Below, piece by piece: positions 33,330 through 39,232 of a stretch of DNA of 64,000 nucleotides. This DNA is from Symbiobacterium thermophilum IAM 14863 (GTDB lineage: Bacteria > Bacillota > Sulfobacillia > Symbiobacteriales > Symbiobacteriaceae). The stretch lies in assembly GCF_000009905.1 (NCBI RefSeq), contig NC_006177.1, forward strand, positions 2,232,001-2,296,000, read 5' to 3'. The translations under genes and the position numbers were made by a program. Position 1 is the first letter of the stretch; each line of letters begins with the position of its first letter. The notes below the pieces were generated by a model that searched no databases, had not been told where the DNA came from, and saw only the letters and a program-made list of their open reading frames with translations.

Positions 33330-35888
33330 CTACTTCCACCTTCCGCCGCCGCCGGAACCGCGGCCACCGCCGCCGAAGCGGCCGCCGCCGCCGGAGCCCC
33401 GGGGACCGCCGCCGAAGCCTCCTCCGCCGCCCGAGCCGCGACCGCCGGGACCGGGCCTGAAGTGCCCGCGGGGTTCGCTGGCGCGCCGCATGGCCTGCGC
33501 CGCGGCCGCCGCCATCGCCATCTGCCGGCGCCGCTCCTCGGCCTTGTGGCGCTGGTAGGCCGCCACCAAGGCCCGGGCGCTGCGCAGCGCGGACTCCGCT
33601 TCCGCCACGGCCTGGTCGTACCGGCCGGCAGCCATCGCCTGCTCACCGGCGTCCAGAGCCCGCTGCAGGGCCGCGGCCGCGCCCGGGTTGAACCGGCTGT
33701 GGACCAGCGCGGCGGTTGCCTCGGCCCGGGCCTGCCGGAGGCGCGCCCGCGCCTCTCCCGCCCTCCGGGCCAGTTCCGCGACGGCCTGGCGCAGGCCGCC
33801 CGCCAGCTCCAGCGCGGCGGCGGCCTCCCGGCCCGCCCGGCTCACGGCCAGAGGCCGCTCTTCCAGCAGGCGGCGCGCACGGTCCAGCGCCACCTCGATC
33901 CGATCGGCCCGCTCGGCGGCGTCCCGGGGCAGGGCGAGCCCCTCGCGGGAGACCAGCTCCCTCGCCGCCGCCCACTCCCGCTCGGCCCGGGTGAGCTTCT
34001 CCCGCGCCGCCTCCCCCGCGGCGGCCAGCCGGTCGGGAAGGGTCGTCAGCAGCGCCGCCCGCTCCCGCAGGGCCGCCAGCTCCGCCAGCCGTTCGTTCAG
34101 CAGCCGGTAAGCCTGCAGGTGCCGCTGCACCTCCGGCCGCACAAAACGCTCCGCCTCCGCCAGGTCCGCCTGCGCCCGCCGCTCCAGGTCCGCCAAGGCC
34201 GCGGGCAGGTCGCGGACATCTGCCCAGTCCTCCGGGGCGTAGCGGGCGGCCAGCTGATCCAGCACGTTCCGGGCCGGCCCCTGCTGCGCGGCCAGCCAAC
34301 CGGCCCCCTCCACCAGGGCCTGCCGCTTCCCGGGATACTGTTCCACGGCCTCCCGGTACCGGGCGAGGATCGCCCGGGCCTCGTCCAGCGCCGCCTGACC
34401 GCCGGCCAGCGCTTGCTCGGCGCCGTCCACCTCTCCCCGGGCCATCCGCTCCCCAGCCCGGGCCTGCTCCTGCAACGCCCGCTCCAGCGCCTGGACCGGG
34501 TCCTCCTCCACAAACCGCAATCCGAGCCCCACCCGGGCCTGCTCGATCTCCGCCCGGGCCTGATCGGCGTCCCGCCGCTGGGCCGCGCAGGCCTCCCGCA
34601 GCCCGCTGAGCCGGGTCAGGTCCGCACCGATCGCCGCGAAGGTCTCCCCCGCCTCCCGCATGATCCGCAGCGCCCGAACCGGGTCCTTGCCCCGGGCGGC
34701 CTCGGCCGCCTGCTGCAGCCGGGCGGCCGCGTCCATCCGTTCCCGCAGGGCCGGAAACTCCCAGCCGGTCTGGTCCTGCAGATCGGCCAGGGTCCGCTCG
34801 GCCGCCTCCCGCCTGGCCCCGGTCTCGCCGACCGCGCCGTCCCAGCCGAGGATCGCCGCCGAGACGGGCGCGTAGGCCTCCTGGGCCTCCCGGTTGGCGG
34901 CCGCGGCCTGCTGGAAGGCCCTGTACACCTCGTCCAGGGCCCGGGTGCCGGCGCCGAAGCGCCAGCGGCGTGCCAGCCTGGCGGCTTCGGCCAGCTTCTC
35001 ACTGCCGGCCCGGTAAGCGTCGAAGGCCCGGTCGGATGCGGCGGCGGCCGCCGTCACGTGGCCGCGGGTCTCCTCCCCGTCGTAGTTGCGGGCCAGCGGC
35101 AGGTCCTGCTCGTGCATCTTCACCAGGTCCGACACGAAGCTGTTCCGGAGCTCCAGGCACTTGCGGTGTGTCCGACGGTACTGCAGGAAGAGCGCCAGCT
35201 CCACCACGGCCGCGATCAGCGCGGCCAGCCCGGCAAGCACGGCTCCGATGCGGCCCGGTGCGGACGTGCGGGCAGCGGCGCCGCCCGCACCGGGCTGCGC
35301 CACGCCGGAGCCGCGGGGGCCGGGCGAAGGCCGCCCCGCGCCGGAACCGCCGGTGGCGGGCAAGGGCTGGGCCGCGGGCGCCGCGGCCAGCGATTCGATC
35401 CGGTCCGCGGCCGCCACGATGGCACCGGCGATGTCGCCCTCCGCCGCCGGCGGCACAAAGGCGTCCATGATCTGTTCCACCGAACGCTCAAATGCGCGCC
35501 CCGTCGCCTCCCGGAAGGCGGACTGCACGGCGCCGTCCCTCCAGACCCGGAAGTCGACCAGCCCCTCCTCCATCGCGATGGTGATCAGTACGGCATCCCG
35601 GGGCACGTCGGCCAGCAGTTCATCAGCCATCGCCTGGAACCGGGCCTCGGCATCGACCGGTTCCGCCCCGGCGAACGCCTCCTCCAGGATGATCACCCGG
35701 AAGCCGAAGCGGCGGCCCGTCAGGTCGTTCTCCAGCCGCTCCAGCTCGGCGGCGGAGAAGATCCCGGCCCGGTCGTCCACCACGCCGCCGGAACTCGTGG
35801 CCGCCACCGCCGGCGCCGCGACCCACAGCAGTGCTGCCAGCAGGGACAGGATCAGGGCGGGAACGGAACGCACAGATCGCTTCACCAT
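33330..35888 (-). CDS. TPM-domain membrane protein with long coiled coil and glycine-rich tail
   Basis: An 852-residue protein. It has a signal peptide (LILSLLAALLWVAAPAVAA), a TPM_phosphatase domain (about 35-165: VVDDRAGIFSAAELERLEND, FRVWRDGAVQSAF) and a Gly/Pro linker. One membrane helix follows (about 212-232), then over 500 residues of Ala/Arg/Glu-rich helix with coiled-coil character. The last 50 residues are a repetitive Gly-rich tail (RGSGGGGGFGGGPRGSGGGG). Related TPM proteins (YgcG, Rv2345-like) have the same plan. The TPM domain faces outward and the coiled coil the cytosol; function unknown. ATG start with GAGGAGGCG. Divergent from the hflX leader. Confidence 0.85.
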   Translation of the reverse strand: MVKRSVRSVPALILSLLAALLWVAAPAVAATSSGGVVDDRAGIFSAAELERLENDLTGRRFGFRVIILEEAFAGAEPVDAEARFQAMADELLADVPRDAVLITIAMEEGLVDFRVWRDGAVQSAFREATGRAFERSVEQIMDAFVPPAAEGDIAGAIVAAADRIESLAAAPAAQPLPATGGSGAGRPSPGPRGSGVAQPGAGGAAARTSAPGRIGAVLAGLAALIAAVVELALFLQYRRTHRKCLELRNSFVSDLVKMHEQDLPLARNYDGEETRGHVTAAAAASDRAFDAYRAGSEKLAEAARLARRWRFGAGTRALDEVYRAFQQAAAANREAQEAYAPVSAAILGWDGAVGETGARREAAERTLADLQDQTGWEFPALRERMDAAARLQQAAEAARGKDPVRALRIMREAGETFAAIGADLTRLSGLREACAAQRRDADQARAEIEQARVGLGLRFVEEDPVQALERALQEQARAGERMARGEVDGAEQALAGGQAALDEARAILARYREAVEQYPGKRQALVEGAGWLAAQQGPARNVLDQLAARYAPEDWADVRDLPAALADLERRAQADLAEAERFVRPEVQRHLQAYRLLNERLAELAALRERAALLTTLPDRLAAAGEAAREKLTRAEREWAAARELVSREGLALPRDAAERADRIEVALDRARRLLEERPLAVSRAGREAAAALELAGGLRQAVAELARRAGEARARLRQARAEATAALVHSRFNPGAAAALQRALDAGEQAMAAGRYDQAVAEAESALRSARALVAAYQRHKAEERRRQMAMAAAAAQAMRRASEPRGHFRPGPGGRGSGGGGGFGGGPRGSGGGGRFGGGGRGSGGGGRWK

Positions 35889-35999: not shown

Positions 36000-36029
36000 T
36001 TGACTTCCCTTCGGGCCGGGAGGTACAAT
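36000..36029 (+). promoter_or_regulatory. Promoter of the hflX leader
   Basis: TTGACT (36000-36005), an 18-base spacer, TACAAT (36024-36029). Transcription would begin about 25 bases before the leader-peptide start codon. Confidence 0.7.
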
Positions 36030-36059
36030 AGACGCAGTCTTCACGGAGGAGGGACAGTC

Positions 36060-36131
36060 ATGATCGGGATCGAGAAGCGCCTGCCCGGCGTGATCCGCAT
36101 GCACAAGCCCTCTCCGGCGTGCCCTCGGTAG
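36060..36131 (+). CDS. 23-residue leader peptide upstream of hflX
   Basis: ATG at 36060 follows a strong GGAGGAGGG ribosome site at 9-base spacing. The peptide reads MIGIEKRLPGVIRMHKPSPA and ends CPR. It lies between a good promoter and an intrinsic terminator 27 bases after its stop, the layout of ribosome-mediated attenuators. Its C-terminus is rich in proline and basic residues, which could slow ribosomes. In Listeria and Bacillus, antibiotic-responsive genes, including hflX-type ribosome-rescue genes, are known to sit behind leader ORF plus terminator. I infer the same logic here: inhibited ribosomes stall on the leader and block terminator formation. Confidence 0.75.
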   Translation: MIGIEKRLPGVIRMHKPSPACPR

Positions 36132-36157
36132 CGGTGCCTGGTCACGGAAGGCAACGC

Positions 36158-36189
36158 GGCCGCGGCCCTGGTGGGGCTGCGGCCTTTTT
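36158..36189 (+). terminator. Intrinsic terminator/attenuator before hflX
   Basis: An 11-bp stem (GGCCGCGGCCC with GGGCTGCGGCC, one G-T pair), a 5-base loop and TTTTT at 36185-36189. It stands 92 bases before the hflX start, downstream of the leader peptide, with no gene ending before it on this strand, so its only target is hflX itself. Confidence 0.85.
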
Positions 36190-36281
36190 GTGTGGCTGAG
36201 GCCGCTGCCCCGGCCCGGGTCGGCCCGACCGGGGAAGGCCCCGGAGAGCTGAACCGAAACAACGACAAGGAGTGGCCATTC

Positions 36282-37565
36282 ATGAACGAAACGGAACTGC
36301 GCAACCGACAGGCCACGGCCTTCTTGGTGGGGCTGGAGCTGCCGTCGGCTTACCGGGACGGGTGGAGCGCCGCCGAGTCCCTGGATGAGCTGGAACGGCT
36401 GGTCGACACGGCCGGCGCGACGGTGGTCGGCCGGGAGGTGCAGAGCCGGCCCGCGCCCGACGTGGCCACCTACATCGGACGGGGCAAGGCCGAGGAGATC
36501 GAGCTTCTGCGGCGGGAACTGGACTTCGACTTCGTCATCTTCGACGACGAGCTCACCCCGGTGCAGCAGCGCAACCTGGAGAAGATCATCGAGTGCCAGG
36601 TGCTGGACCGCACCGCGGTGATCCTGGACATCTTCGCGCTCCGCGCCCGGACCCGCGAGGCCAAGCTCCAGGTGGAGCTGGCGCAGCTGGGCTACCGGCT
36701 GCCGCGCCTCACCGGCAAGGGCGTCGAGCTGTCCCGGCAGGCGGGCTCCGCGGGGACCGTCTTCAACCGCGGCCCCGGCGAGACCAAGCTGGAGGTCGAC
36801 CGGCGGCGCATCCGGGACCGGATGGCGGCGCTCCGGCGGGAGCTGGAGGAGATCAAGGCGCACCGGGAGCGGCTGCGGGCCGAACGCAGGGAGTCGGCGG
36901 TGCCGGTGGTGGCGCTCACCGGTTACACGAACGCCGGCAAGTCGACCCTGCACCGGGTCCTCGCGGGCTCCGACGTGCTGGCGGAGGACCGGCTGTTCGC
37001 CACCCTGGACGCCACGACGCGCCGGGTGCAGCCGGCCGAAGGCGAGCCCTACCTGCTGGTGGACACCGTCGGCTTCATCCACAACCTCCCGCACCACCTG
37101 GTGGCGGCCTTCCGCTCCACCCTGGAAGAGGTGAACCAGGCGGACCTGCTGCTGCACGTCGTCGACGCCTCCCACCCCAAGCGGGCCGAACAGATGGCCA
37201 CCGTGCACCGGGTGCTGGAGGAGCTGGGGGCGGGCGACAAGCCGACCCTCGTGGTCTACAATAAGATCGACCGGGTCGACCCGGCCGAGCTGGACCACCT
37301 GATGCGCCAGACCCCCGGTGCCGTGGCCGTGGCCGCGGCGCTGGGCCGGAACCTGGACAGACTGCAGGCGGCGATCCAGCAGGCCCTGCATGAGCGGCGG
37401 GAAGTGCTGGAGGTCGTCATCCCCTACGCCCGGTCCGCCTGGCTGTCGTGGGTGCACGAGCGGGGACGGGTGCTGACCGAGGAGCACCGGGAGGACGGAA
37501 CCTACGTCACGGTGGAGTTGGAGAGGGGGCTCGCGGCCCGGCTGCGGGCGGCCCTGGACGAGTAG
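36282..37565 (+). CDS. hflX: GTPase HflX (ribosome-splitting rescue factor)
   Basis: A 427-residue GTPase. The N-terminal HflX domain has PDVATYIGRGKAEEIELL and the conserved RGPGETKLEVDRRRI. A coiled coil follows (RDRMAALRRELEEIKAHRER). The G domain has G1 GYTNAGKST, G3 DTVGFI and G4 NKID. HflX binds the 50S subunit and splits stalled 70S ribosomes after heat or antibiotic stress. ATG at 36282 lies nine bases after AAGGAG; the frame is open upstream to 36171 without a ribosome site. The leader peptide and terminator upstream suggest induction by translation inhibitors. An S-component transporter gene follows 39 bases later. Confidence 0.96.
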   Translation: MNETELRNRQATAFLVGLELPSAYRDGWSAAESLDELERLVDTAGATVVGREVQSRPAPDVATYIGRGKAEEIELLRRELDFDFVIFDDELTPVQQRNLEKIIECQVLDRTAVILDIFALRARTREAKLQVELAQLGYRLPRLTGKGVELSRQAGSAGTVFNRGPGETKLEVDRRRIRDRMAALRRELEEIKAHRERLRAERRESAVPVVALTGYTNAGKSTLHRVLAGSDVLAEDRLFATLDATTRRVQPAEGEPYLLVDTVGFIHNLPHHLVAAFRSTLEEVNQADLLLHVVDASHPKRAEQMATVHRVLEELGAGDKPTLVVYNKIDRVDPAELDHLMRQTPGAVAVAAALGRNLDRLQAAIQQALHERREVLEVVIPYARSAWLSWVHERGRVLTEEHREDGTYVTVELERGLAARLRAALDE

Positions 37566-37604: not shown

Positions 37605-38144
37605 ATGAACCGGCGTCCGCACCAGATCACGCTCTCCGCCGTATTCCTGGCCCTGGCGCTGATCCTGCCCTTCTTCACCGGCCAGATCCCCCAGTTTGGG
37701 CAGATGCTCCTGCCCATGCACCTCCCGGTCCTGATCTGCGGCTTCGTCTGCGGCTGGCGCGAGGGGCTGCTGGTGGGCTTCCTGGCCCCGCTGCTGCGCA
37801 GCGCGGCCTTCGGCATGCCGCCGCTGTACCCCACCGCCGTGGCAATGGCCTTCGAGCTCGCGACCTACGGGACGGTGACGGGGCTCCTGCAGGCGCGCCT
37901 TCCCCGCAGCACGGCCTCGCTGCTGGCGTCCCTGGTGGCCGCGATGCTCGCGGGGCGGATCGCCTGGGCGGCCGCGACCTTCGCGCTGACCGGGGCGCTC
38001 ACGCTGGAGCTCTTCCTTGCGGCCGCCTTCCTCAACGCCTGGCCGGGGATCGTGCTGCAGCTCCTCCTGGTGCCGCCGGTCGTGGCGGGCATCGCGCGCC
38101 TGGTGCAGGAGGAGCCGGCCATGCGGGGTTCCCCCCGCAGATGA
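37605..38144 (+). CDS. ECF transporter S component
   Basis: A 179-residue membrane protein with five to six hydrophobic helices. The opening TLSAVFLALALILPFF and LPMHLPVLICGFVCGWREGLLVGFLAPLLRS fit energy-coupling-factor S components, which bind a vitamin or precursor and work with a shared EcfAAT module. The substrate is unclear. There is no riboswitch in the 39-base gap after hflX, so it may be cotranscribed with it. The ribosome site is weak (CGAGGCGACC). The EcfA/T genes are not in this window. Confidence 0.8.
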   Translation: MNRRPHQITLSAVFLALALILPFFTGQIPQFGQMLLPMHLPVLICGFVCGWREGLLVGFLAPLLRSAAFGMPPLYPTAVAMAFELATYGTVTGLLQARLPRSTASLLASLVAAMLAGRIAWAAATFALTGALTLELFLAAAFLNAWPGIVLQLLLVPPVVAGIARLVQEEPAMRGSPRR

Positions 38145-38293: not shown

Positions 38294-39232
38294 CTACTCA
38301 CGGGCGGCGAAGGCCAGGCGGAGGTGGGCCGCCGCATCCTCCAAGGCCTGCCTGCCGGCGGGCATGGCGCCCAGCAGCGTGCAGAAGCCGTGGATCTGGC
38401 CGAGGTACCGCTTGACGGTGACGGCGCTGCCGGCCTCGATCAGCTTGCGGGCGTACGCCTCCCCCTCGTCCCGCAGCGGGTCGTACTCGGCGGTGATCAC
38501 GAAGGCCGGGGGCAGGCCGGACACGTCGGCCGCCTGCAGGGGCGAGGCCCGCCAGTCCCTGCCATCCGCCTCGCTCCGGATGTAATGGTCCCAGAACCAC
38601 TGCATCATGGCCGTGGTCAGGAAGTAGTCGTTCCCGTTTTCCCGGTAGGACGGGGTATCGAAGTTGTGATCGGTCACCGGGTAGATTAGCACCTGGTAGG
38701 CCAGGTCCGGATAGCCCTTGTCCCGGGCCATGAGTGAGACCACCGCCGCCAGGTTGCCGCCGGCGCTGTCACCGGCCACCGCGATGCGCCGCGGGTCGCC
38801 GCCGATGGTCCGGGCATTCTCGGCCACCCACACGGTCGCGGCGTAGCAGTCCTCCGCCGCCGCCGGGAACTTGTGCTCCGGCGCCAGCCGGTAGTCCACC
38901 GACACCACCACGGCCCCGGCCCTGTTGGCCAGCAGGGCGCAGGTGGCGTGCACGGTGTCGGGGCTGCCGAGCACCCAGCCGCCCCCGTGGAAGTAGAGCA
39001 GCACCGGGAACGGCCCCTCCCCCGCCGGCGTGTAAATGCGGACGGGAATCTTCCCTGCGGGCCCCGGCACGGTCCGGTCCACCACACCGGCCACCGGCTC
39101 GGCATCGCCGCCGAACGCCGCCATCTGCTCGGTCATCTTCCGGGCATCCGCGGGGGACAGCTCGTTGAGCGCCGGGCCACCGGCTTCGGCGAGCTGCTTC
39201 AGGAAGGCCTCCGCTTCTCTGGCCAGCGGCAT
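38294..39232 (-). CDS. Alpha/beta hydrolase, hormone-sensitive-lipase-type esterase
   Basis: A 312-residue carboxylesterase of family IV. It shows the oxyanion motif HGGG (82-85, YFHGGGWVLGS), VDYRLAPEHKFPAA, the nucleophile Ser156 in GDSAGG, Asp251 in EYDPLRDEG and His281 in GQIHGF. These form the complete triad. Such enzymes cleave short-chain acyl esters and are usually cytosolic; no signal peptide is visible. ATG start with GGGGAGGAG. It is a single gene facing away from the phosphatase-GNAT gene. Confidence 0.94.
   Translation of the reverse strand: MPLAREAEAFLKQLAEAGGPALNELSPADARKMTEQMAAFGGDAEPVAGVVDRTVPGPAGKIPVRIYTPAGEGPFPVLLYFHGGGWVLGSPDTVHATCALLANRAGAVVVSVDYRLAPEHKFPAAAEDCYAATVWVAENARTIGGDPRRIAVAGDSAGGNLAAVVSLMARDKGYPDLAYQVLIYPVTDHNFDTPSYRENGNDYFLTTAMMQWFWDHYIRSEADGRDWRASPLQAADVSGLPPAFVITAEYDPLRDEGEAYARKLIEAGSAVTVKRYLGQIHGFCTLLGAMPAGRQALEDAAAHLRLAFAARE

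Follow-up and report, generated by a model that had tools for sequence, protein, structure and literature searches.

A conserved leader ORF and terminator suggest ribosome-mediated attenuation of the only hflX gene in Symbiobacterium

In Listeria, the rli80 leader stands ahead of hflXr (lmo0762) and carries an RLR motif, and its induction by stalled ribosomes has been shown (PMC6310831). The element uORFC-6-1, described mainly from Bacillales, places an upstream ORF and RNA structure before hflX and has a conserved Arg-Leu(-Arg) (PMC8632094). In ErmDL, one of the ErmD/ErmK-type leaders, the motif lies at Arg6-Leu7-Arg8, and RLR is needed for stalling with telithromycin and dispensable for stalling with erythromycin (PMC8298421). 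At the protein level, a longer loop has been reported to set HflXr apart from canonical HflX (PMC12493154).

Judged from its sequence, the leader ahead of hflX in Symbiobacterium most likely resembles the rli80-hflXr attenuator, with which it shares a short leader ORF, an intrinsic terminator and an HflX-type target, and RLR is present in two of the copies analyzed here. The two differ in leader length (14 amino acids in rli80, 20–24 here) and in RNA sequence, and the Symbiobacterium leader has a hairpin, P2, while the S. thermophilum copy is without RLR. Moreover, rli80 controls a second, specialized HflX in a low-GC genome, whereas the target here is the only HflX copy, and induction by stalled ribosomes, demonstrated for rli80, is proposed for Symbiobacterium. 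The likeness to uORFC-6-1 was drawn from the description of that element. With ErmD/ErmK-type leaders, which have Arg-Leu(-Arg) at codons 6–8, the Symbiobacteriaceae leaders share this candidate stall site, here at codons 7–9; the targets differ, being rRNA methyltransferases there and hflX and ABC-2 permeases here. This kind of control is known but the lineage is new; the RNA is distinct, a paralogous copy stands ahead of exporter genes, and the target has an unexpected HflXr-like loop.

The locus was analyzed within a stretch of 64,000 nucleotides of Symbiobacterium thermophilum IAM 14863 (NC_006177.1, positions 2,232,001 to 2,296,000; hereafter the window), and its features are listed in Table 1. 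The promoter agrees with the consensus at 10 of 12 bases, and promoter-like sites in the 4.5 kb region number two against a shuffle mean of 0.1; from this promoter, the transcript is predicted to start at about 36036. The terminator stem (36158–36184; local MFE −26.7 kcal/mol) has 12 pairs, 10 of them G-C, followed by TTTTT at 36185–36189, and begins 26 nt after the leader stop. A preliminary description of the locus had reported the promoter, the 23-codon ORF with its ribosome site, a GC stem with TTTTT and 92 bases from terminator to hflX, all of which we recovered, the last as 92 nt between the T tract and the ATG at 36282; its stem of 11 pairs and stop-to-stem spacing of 27 nt needed small corrections. 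Because the upstream gene is divergent, the terminator serves this leader-hflX transcript alone. That gene (33333–35888, minus strand) encodes an 852-aa protein with weak matches to a TPM domain and an EzrA-like coiled coil. Right behind the terminator T run, GTGTG at 36190–36194 is kept in the genus and is GTGT in L013, a conservation that exceeds the need of termination.

Table 1. Positions in the window of the hflX leader elements and of hflX
Feature	Position	Strand	Remark
Sigma-70-type promoter, TTGACT-18-TACAAT	36000..36029	+	Promoters at the matching position of the five hflX leaders
Leader Shine-Dalgarno, GGAGGAGGG	36045..36053	+	
Leader ORF, 23 codons and stop, peptide MIGIEKRLPGVIRMHKPSPACPR	36060..36131	+	Conserved Arg-Leu codons 7-8 at 36078-36083
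CCCTCTCCGG, codons 17-20, 3' side of P1	36108..36117	+	CCCTCTCNGG in 6/6 copies, with rare Ser codon TCT
GCCCTCGGT, candidate antiterminator 5' strand, pairing with 36159-36166	36121..36129	+	From the nascent-RNA fold
Hairpin P2, between stop codon and terminator	36131..36157	+	Variable sequence, re-paired in relatives
Intrinsic terminator, 12-bp stem and TTTTT	36158..36189	+	
hflX Shine-Dalgarno, AAGGAG	36267..36272	+	
hflX, GTPase HflX, 427 aa	36282..37565	+	Loop SRQAGSAGTVFNRGPGET of HflXr length

A search for conserved leaders in relatives, which the preliminary description had proposed, found the unit ahead of hflX in every one of the five family genomes examined, S. thermophilum included. 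The HflX search behind this comparison covered 154 class genomes, in some of which weak matches were other GTPases. Within the genus, the leaders read MFWIKMRLFGEIHMHKPSPARPR (L004/L010) and MIWIAGRLRSLVPVHTPSPARPR (L011); in other genera, they read VIWIKLRLIRAQLHSLPSPVRPR (L013, GTG start) and MLFNYARSITTSIPSQDRPR (L012). Across the family, conservation extends to the promoter, the ORF, the small hairpin and the terminator; the unit is absent from the sister family (L014, L015), and the remaining class loci examined had no comparable leader ORF. A covariance model that started at about codon 16 and ran to the terminator found one further, sixth copy (L092; E = 4.2e-8) in G126, the genome of L013, with promoter, Shine-Dalgarno, leader MFFRFIRLRLTTNMHGKPSQVRAA and stop, hairpin and terminator in this order, followed by two ABC2_membrane_6 permeases. 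At the sequence level, an ORF with a Shine-Dalgarno and predicted translation between promoter and terminator is conserved in the six copies, and its lengths differ by multiples of three. The unit was found solely ahead of hflX or exporter permeases, and in the same orientation. A 399-genome phylum sample yielded no convincing further copy, plasmid records gave no match, and Rfam, at gathering and relaxed thresholds, gave no relevant match; of the further covariance-model matches in family, order and phylum, those inspected (L083–L086, L088–L090, L093, L094 and L099–L105) were rejected, being ordinary terminators, unrelated short ORFs or a T-box.

In G126, an ATPase gene whose best family is DrrA (below the DrrA cut-off) lies 60 bases downstream of hflX and is followed by two ABC-2 permeases, the first of which was recognized from its 47% identity with the permease that follows the sixth copy. 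These arrangements suggest that in this one relative a drug-exporter operon may be switched on together with hflX. The two permeases under the second attenuator (L117; G126:C142, 10509–12100) have no ATPase gene seen directly adjoining, while the homologous pair beside hflX in L116 does.

The entire 256-nt leader folds no better than shuffles (z −0.89), so single-sequence folding energy proves nothing and comparative evidence carries the weight. In a structure-aware alignment of the six copies, whose structure was partly derived from the same sequences and is thus somewhat favored, 87.6% of cells were paired versus 33–43% with partners slid. Pairs changed on both sides numbered 8 compared with 3.8 in shuffles, one of 500 shuffles reaching 8. 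The terminator was paired in all copies (6/6, 100%), and in P2, 6 of 8 pairs had double changes. A further helix, P1, can form between 36044–36053, the leader Shine-Dalgarno, and codons 17–19; its strength showed no clear excess over random synonymous codons. A putative RNA-polymerase pause at 36126/36127 (GG at −11/−10, C at −1, G at +1, P1 about 11 nt upstream), whose features all five hflX leaders retain, is a fitting candidate element of the leader. Separately, CUCUCCGG (36110–36117) is perfectly complementary to CCGGAGAG (36241–36248), just before hflX, a pairing potential kept in L004 and L011, and in L013 with one G-U; we rejected it as an antiterminator, since CCGGAGAG is located past the terminator and pairing with it cannot prevent terminator formation.

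Within the leader ORF, two stretches stand out. Near the start, Arg7 is present in all six copies and Leu8 in five; the N-terminal half is otherwise variable, like most of the peptide. Near the end, CCC TCT CNG G is kept in 6/6 copies and CCT CGG TA in 5/5 hflX leaders, so that the rare codons TCT and CCT are retained in six and five copies, respectively. In nearby genes TCT makes up 1.9% of Ser and CCT 2.9% of Pro codons, S. thermophilum hflX uses neither, and degenerate codons of hflX common to S. thermophilum and relatives amount to only 52–69%. Such retention suggests that the RNA is constrained, whether or not the peptide is too, and the C-terminal leader codons look conserved as RNA. We find Arg7-Leu8 more plausible as a stall site than the C-terminus.

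The preliminary description had also suggested folding the leader in search of an alternative antiterminator. In the nascent transcript before the terminator 3' arm is made, GCC-CU-CGGU (36121–36129) is predicted to pair with GCCG-C-GGC (36159–36166), enclosing P2. This candidate recurs when the five hflX leaders are folded locally and is weakest in L012; its strength is not above chance, random synonymous codons giving equal or stronger pairing, in an RNA so GC-rich that fold predictions discriminate poorly. With a ribosome placed at the stop in the folds, the pairing became weaker in just four of the six copies.

Taken together, we consider it fairly probable that hflX is under a ribosome-mediated transcription attenuator, whose inducers would be drugs, or other causes, arresting the ribosome near the beginning of the leader. 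Comparison between species suggests that leader and terminator form a switch that turns hflX on when ribosomes stall, and the attenuator proposed in the preliminary description is well supported by the conserved unit, the early Arg-Leu and the paralogous copy ahead of exporter permeases. Without stress, a ribosome would get to the stop codon and cover 36121–36129, leaving the terminator 5' arm (from 36158) free, so that the terminator would form and hflX would stay off. Under a macrolide-like drug, ribosomes would stall at about Arg7-Leu8 and leave the leader end naked, which together with P2 would pair with the terminator 5' arm and allow RNA polymerase to read through; the HflX made would then split stalled ribosomes. 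P1, through pairing of the leader Shine-Dalgarno with CCCUCUC, would probably limit re-initiation or pause the polymerase, keeping ribosome and polymerase in step.

A response to stalled ribosomes is the most likely function of the leader, and a response to drugs acting at the peptidyl-transferase centre or tunnel is probable. Sensing of drugs is a good inference from these sequences; the proposed specificity for drugs is tentative, given that the antiterminator is not above chance and that S. thermophilum has RLP. On the other hand, RLR is dispensable for erythromycin stalling in ErmDL, so RLP does not exclude a response. The strongest competing explanation, which we regard as unlikely, is a general attenuator reading translation status, in which anything that keeps ribosomes from the leader stop, such as initiation failure, starvation or heat, would open hflX largely irrespective of the peptide sequence. 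It agrees with the general role of HflX on stalled ribosomes, with the candidate antiterminator folding also when no ribosome is on the leader, and with RLR at codons 7–9 occurring in L011 and L092 (two of six copies) and not in S. thermophilum, L004, L012 and L013. However, the persistence of Arg7 and Leu8 amid varying neighbors and the position of the sixth copy before exporter permeases argue against it.

The preliminary description had instead placed the stall on the Pro/basic-rich peptide ending in KPSPACPR; a stall on this C-terminal stretch, or on RPR-stop, is a mechanism that we judge quite improbable. Pro-Ser is fixed at seven residues from the leader end in all six copies, RPR-stop is present in four of the five hflX leaders, and RPR matches the +X+ macrolide motif; nevertheless, the motif is CPR in S. 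thermophilum, L092 ends in RAA, and the retained rare codons would be needless for the peptide. A ribosome there would also come no closer than about 15 nt to the terminator stem and would cover the candidate antiterminator, leaving the terminator free. Given that a ribosome at the stop covers the antiterminator and one at codons 7–8 does not, an early stall would switch hflX on and a C-terminal stall would keep it off, opposite to the earlier proposal. That the unit is a separate, self-terminating small gene, for an sRNA or a protein of 23 aa, and hflX is transcribed from another promoter, is very improbable: promoter, ORF and terminator would make a complete small gene in themselves, but the peptide is mostly variable, the unit keeps its orientation before hflX or exporter permeases, and the interval from terminator to hflX is free of promoter-like sites in S. 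thermophilum and four relatives.

The target of the proposed attenuator is HflX by TIGR03156 (473 bits, cut-off 217) and is single copy in the S. thermophilum genome (3,566,135 bases searched). Its loop reaching the peptidyl-transferase centre is shared by L004 and L011, while the other class members examined, leader-bearing L012 included, have the canonical loop (as SRLGGGIGTRGPGET), and L013 has one residue more than canonical. Aligned with QSGKGGLSNRGSGE of Listeria HflXr and RQKGGIGLRGPGE of E. coli, the Symbiobacterium loop has three residues more than E. coli and the class-canonical form, and one more than Listeria HflXr. It resembles Lmo0762 in the lengthened loop ending NRGxGE; unlike Lmo0762, Symbiobacterium HflX falls among the proteins of its family and order (100/99), the others of which have a canonical or nearly canonical loop, and not with Listeria HflXr, a long branch in this tree. 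Neither descent from the HflXr branch, in a tree with this long branch, nor a second HflX copy in the genome was found. By this phylogeny, the sole HflX of the genus is vertically inherited, its HflXr-length loop notwithstanding. The simplest history, given that L012 combines the leader with a canonical loop, puts the attenuator before the change in the loop. A tentative scenario, possible though short of probable, is that in Symbiobacteriaceae a single housekeeping HflX became an inducible resistance factor without duplication: the drug-sensing attenuator would have come first, in one genus also on exporter permeases as a small regulon, and the loop would have lengthened later in Symbiobacterium, converging on the HflXr type.

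If this is true, leader-peptide drug sensing of ribosome-rescue genes extends to a deep, high-GC Firmicute lineage, the regulatory step preceded the protein change, so that the succession of steps by which an HflXr-type resistance factor arose becomes testable, and the exporter genes of G126 are candidates in the same response. Two further genes lie downstream in the window. A LipP1-type esterase (38297–39232, minus strand) scores 313 bits with a chloramphenicol hydrolase model, below its cut-off of 500. Only 39 bases after hflX, 37605–38144 encodes the substrate component of an ECF-type transporter, weakly ThiT-like, which may share the hflX transcript.
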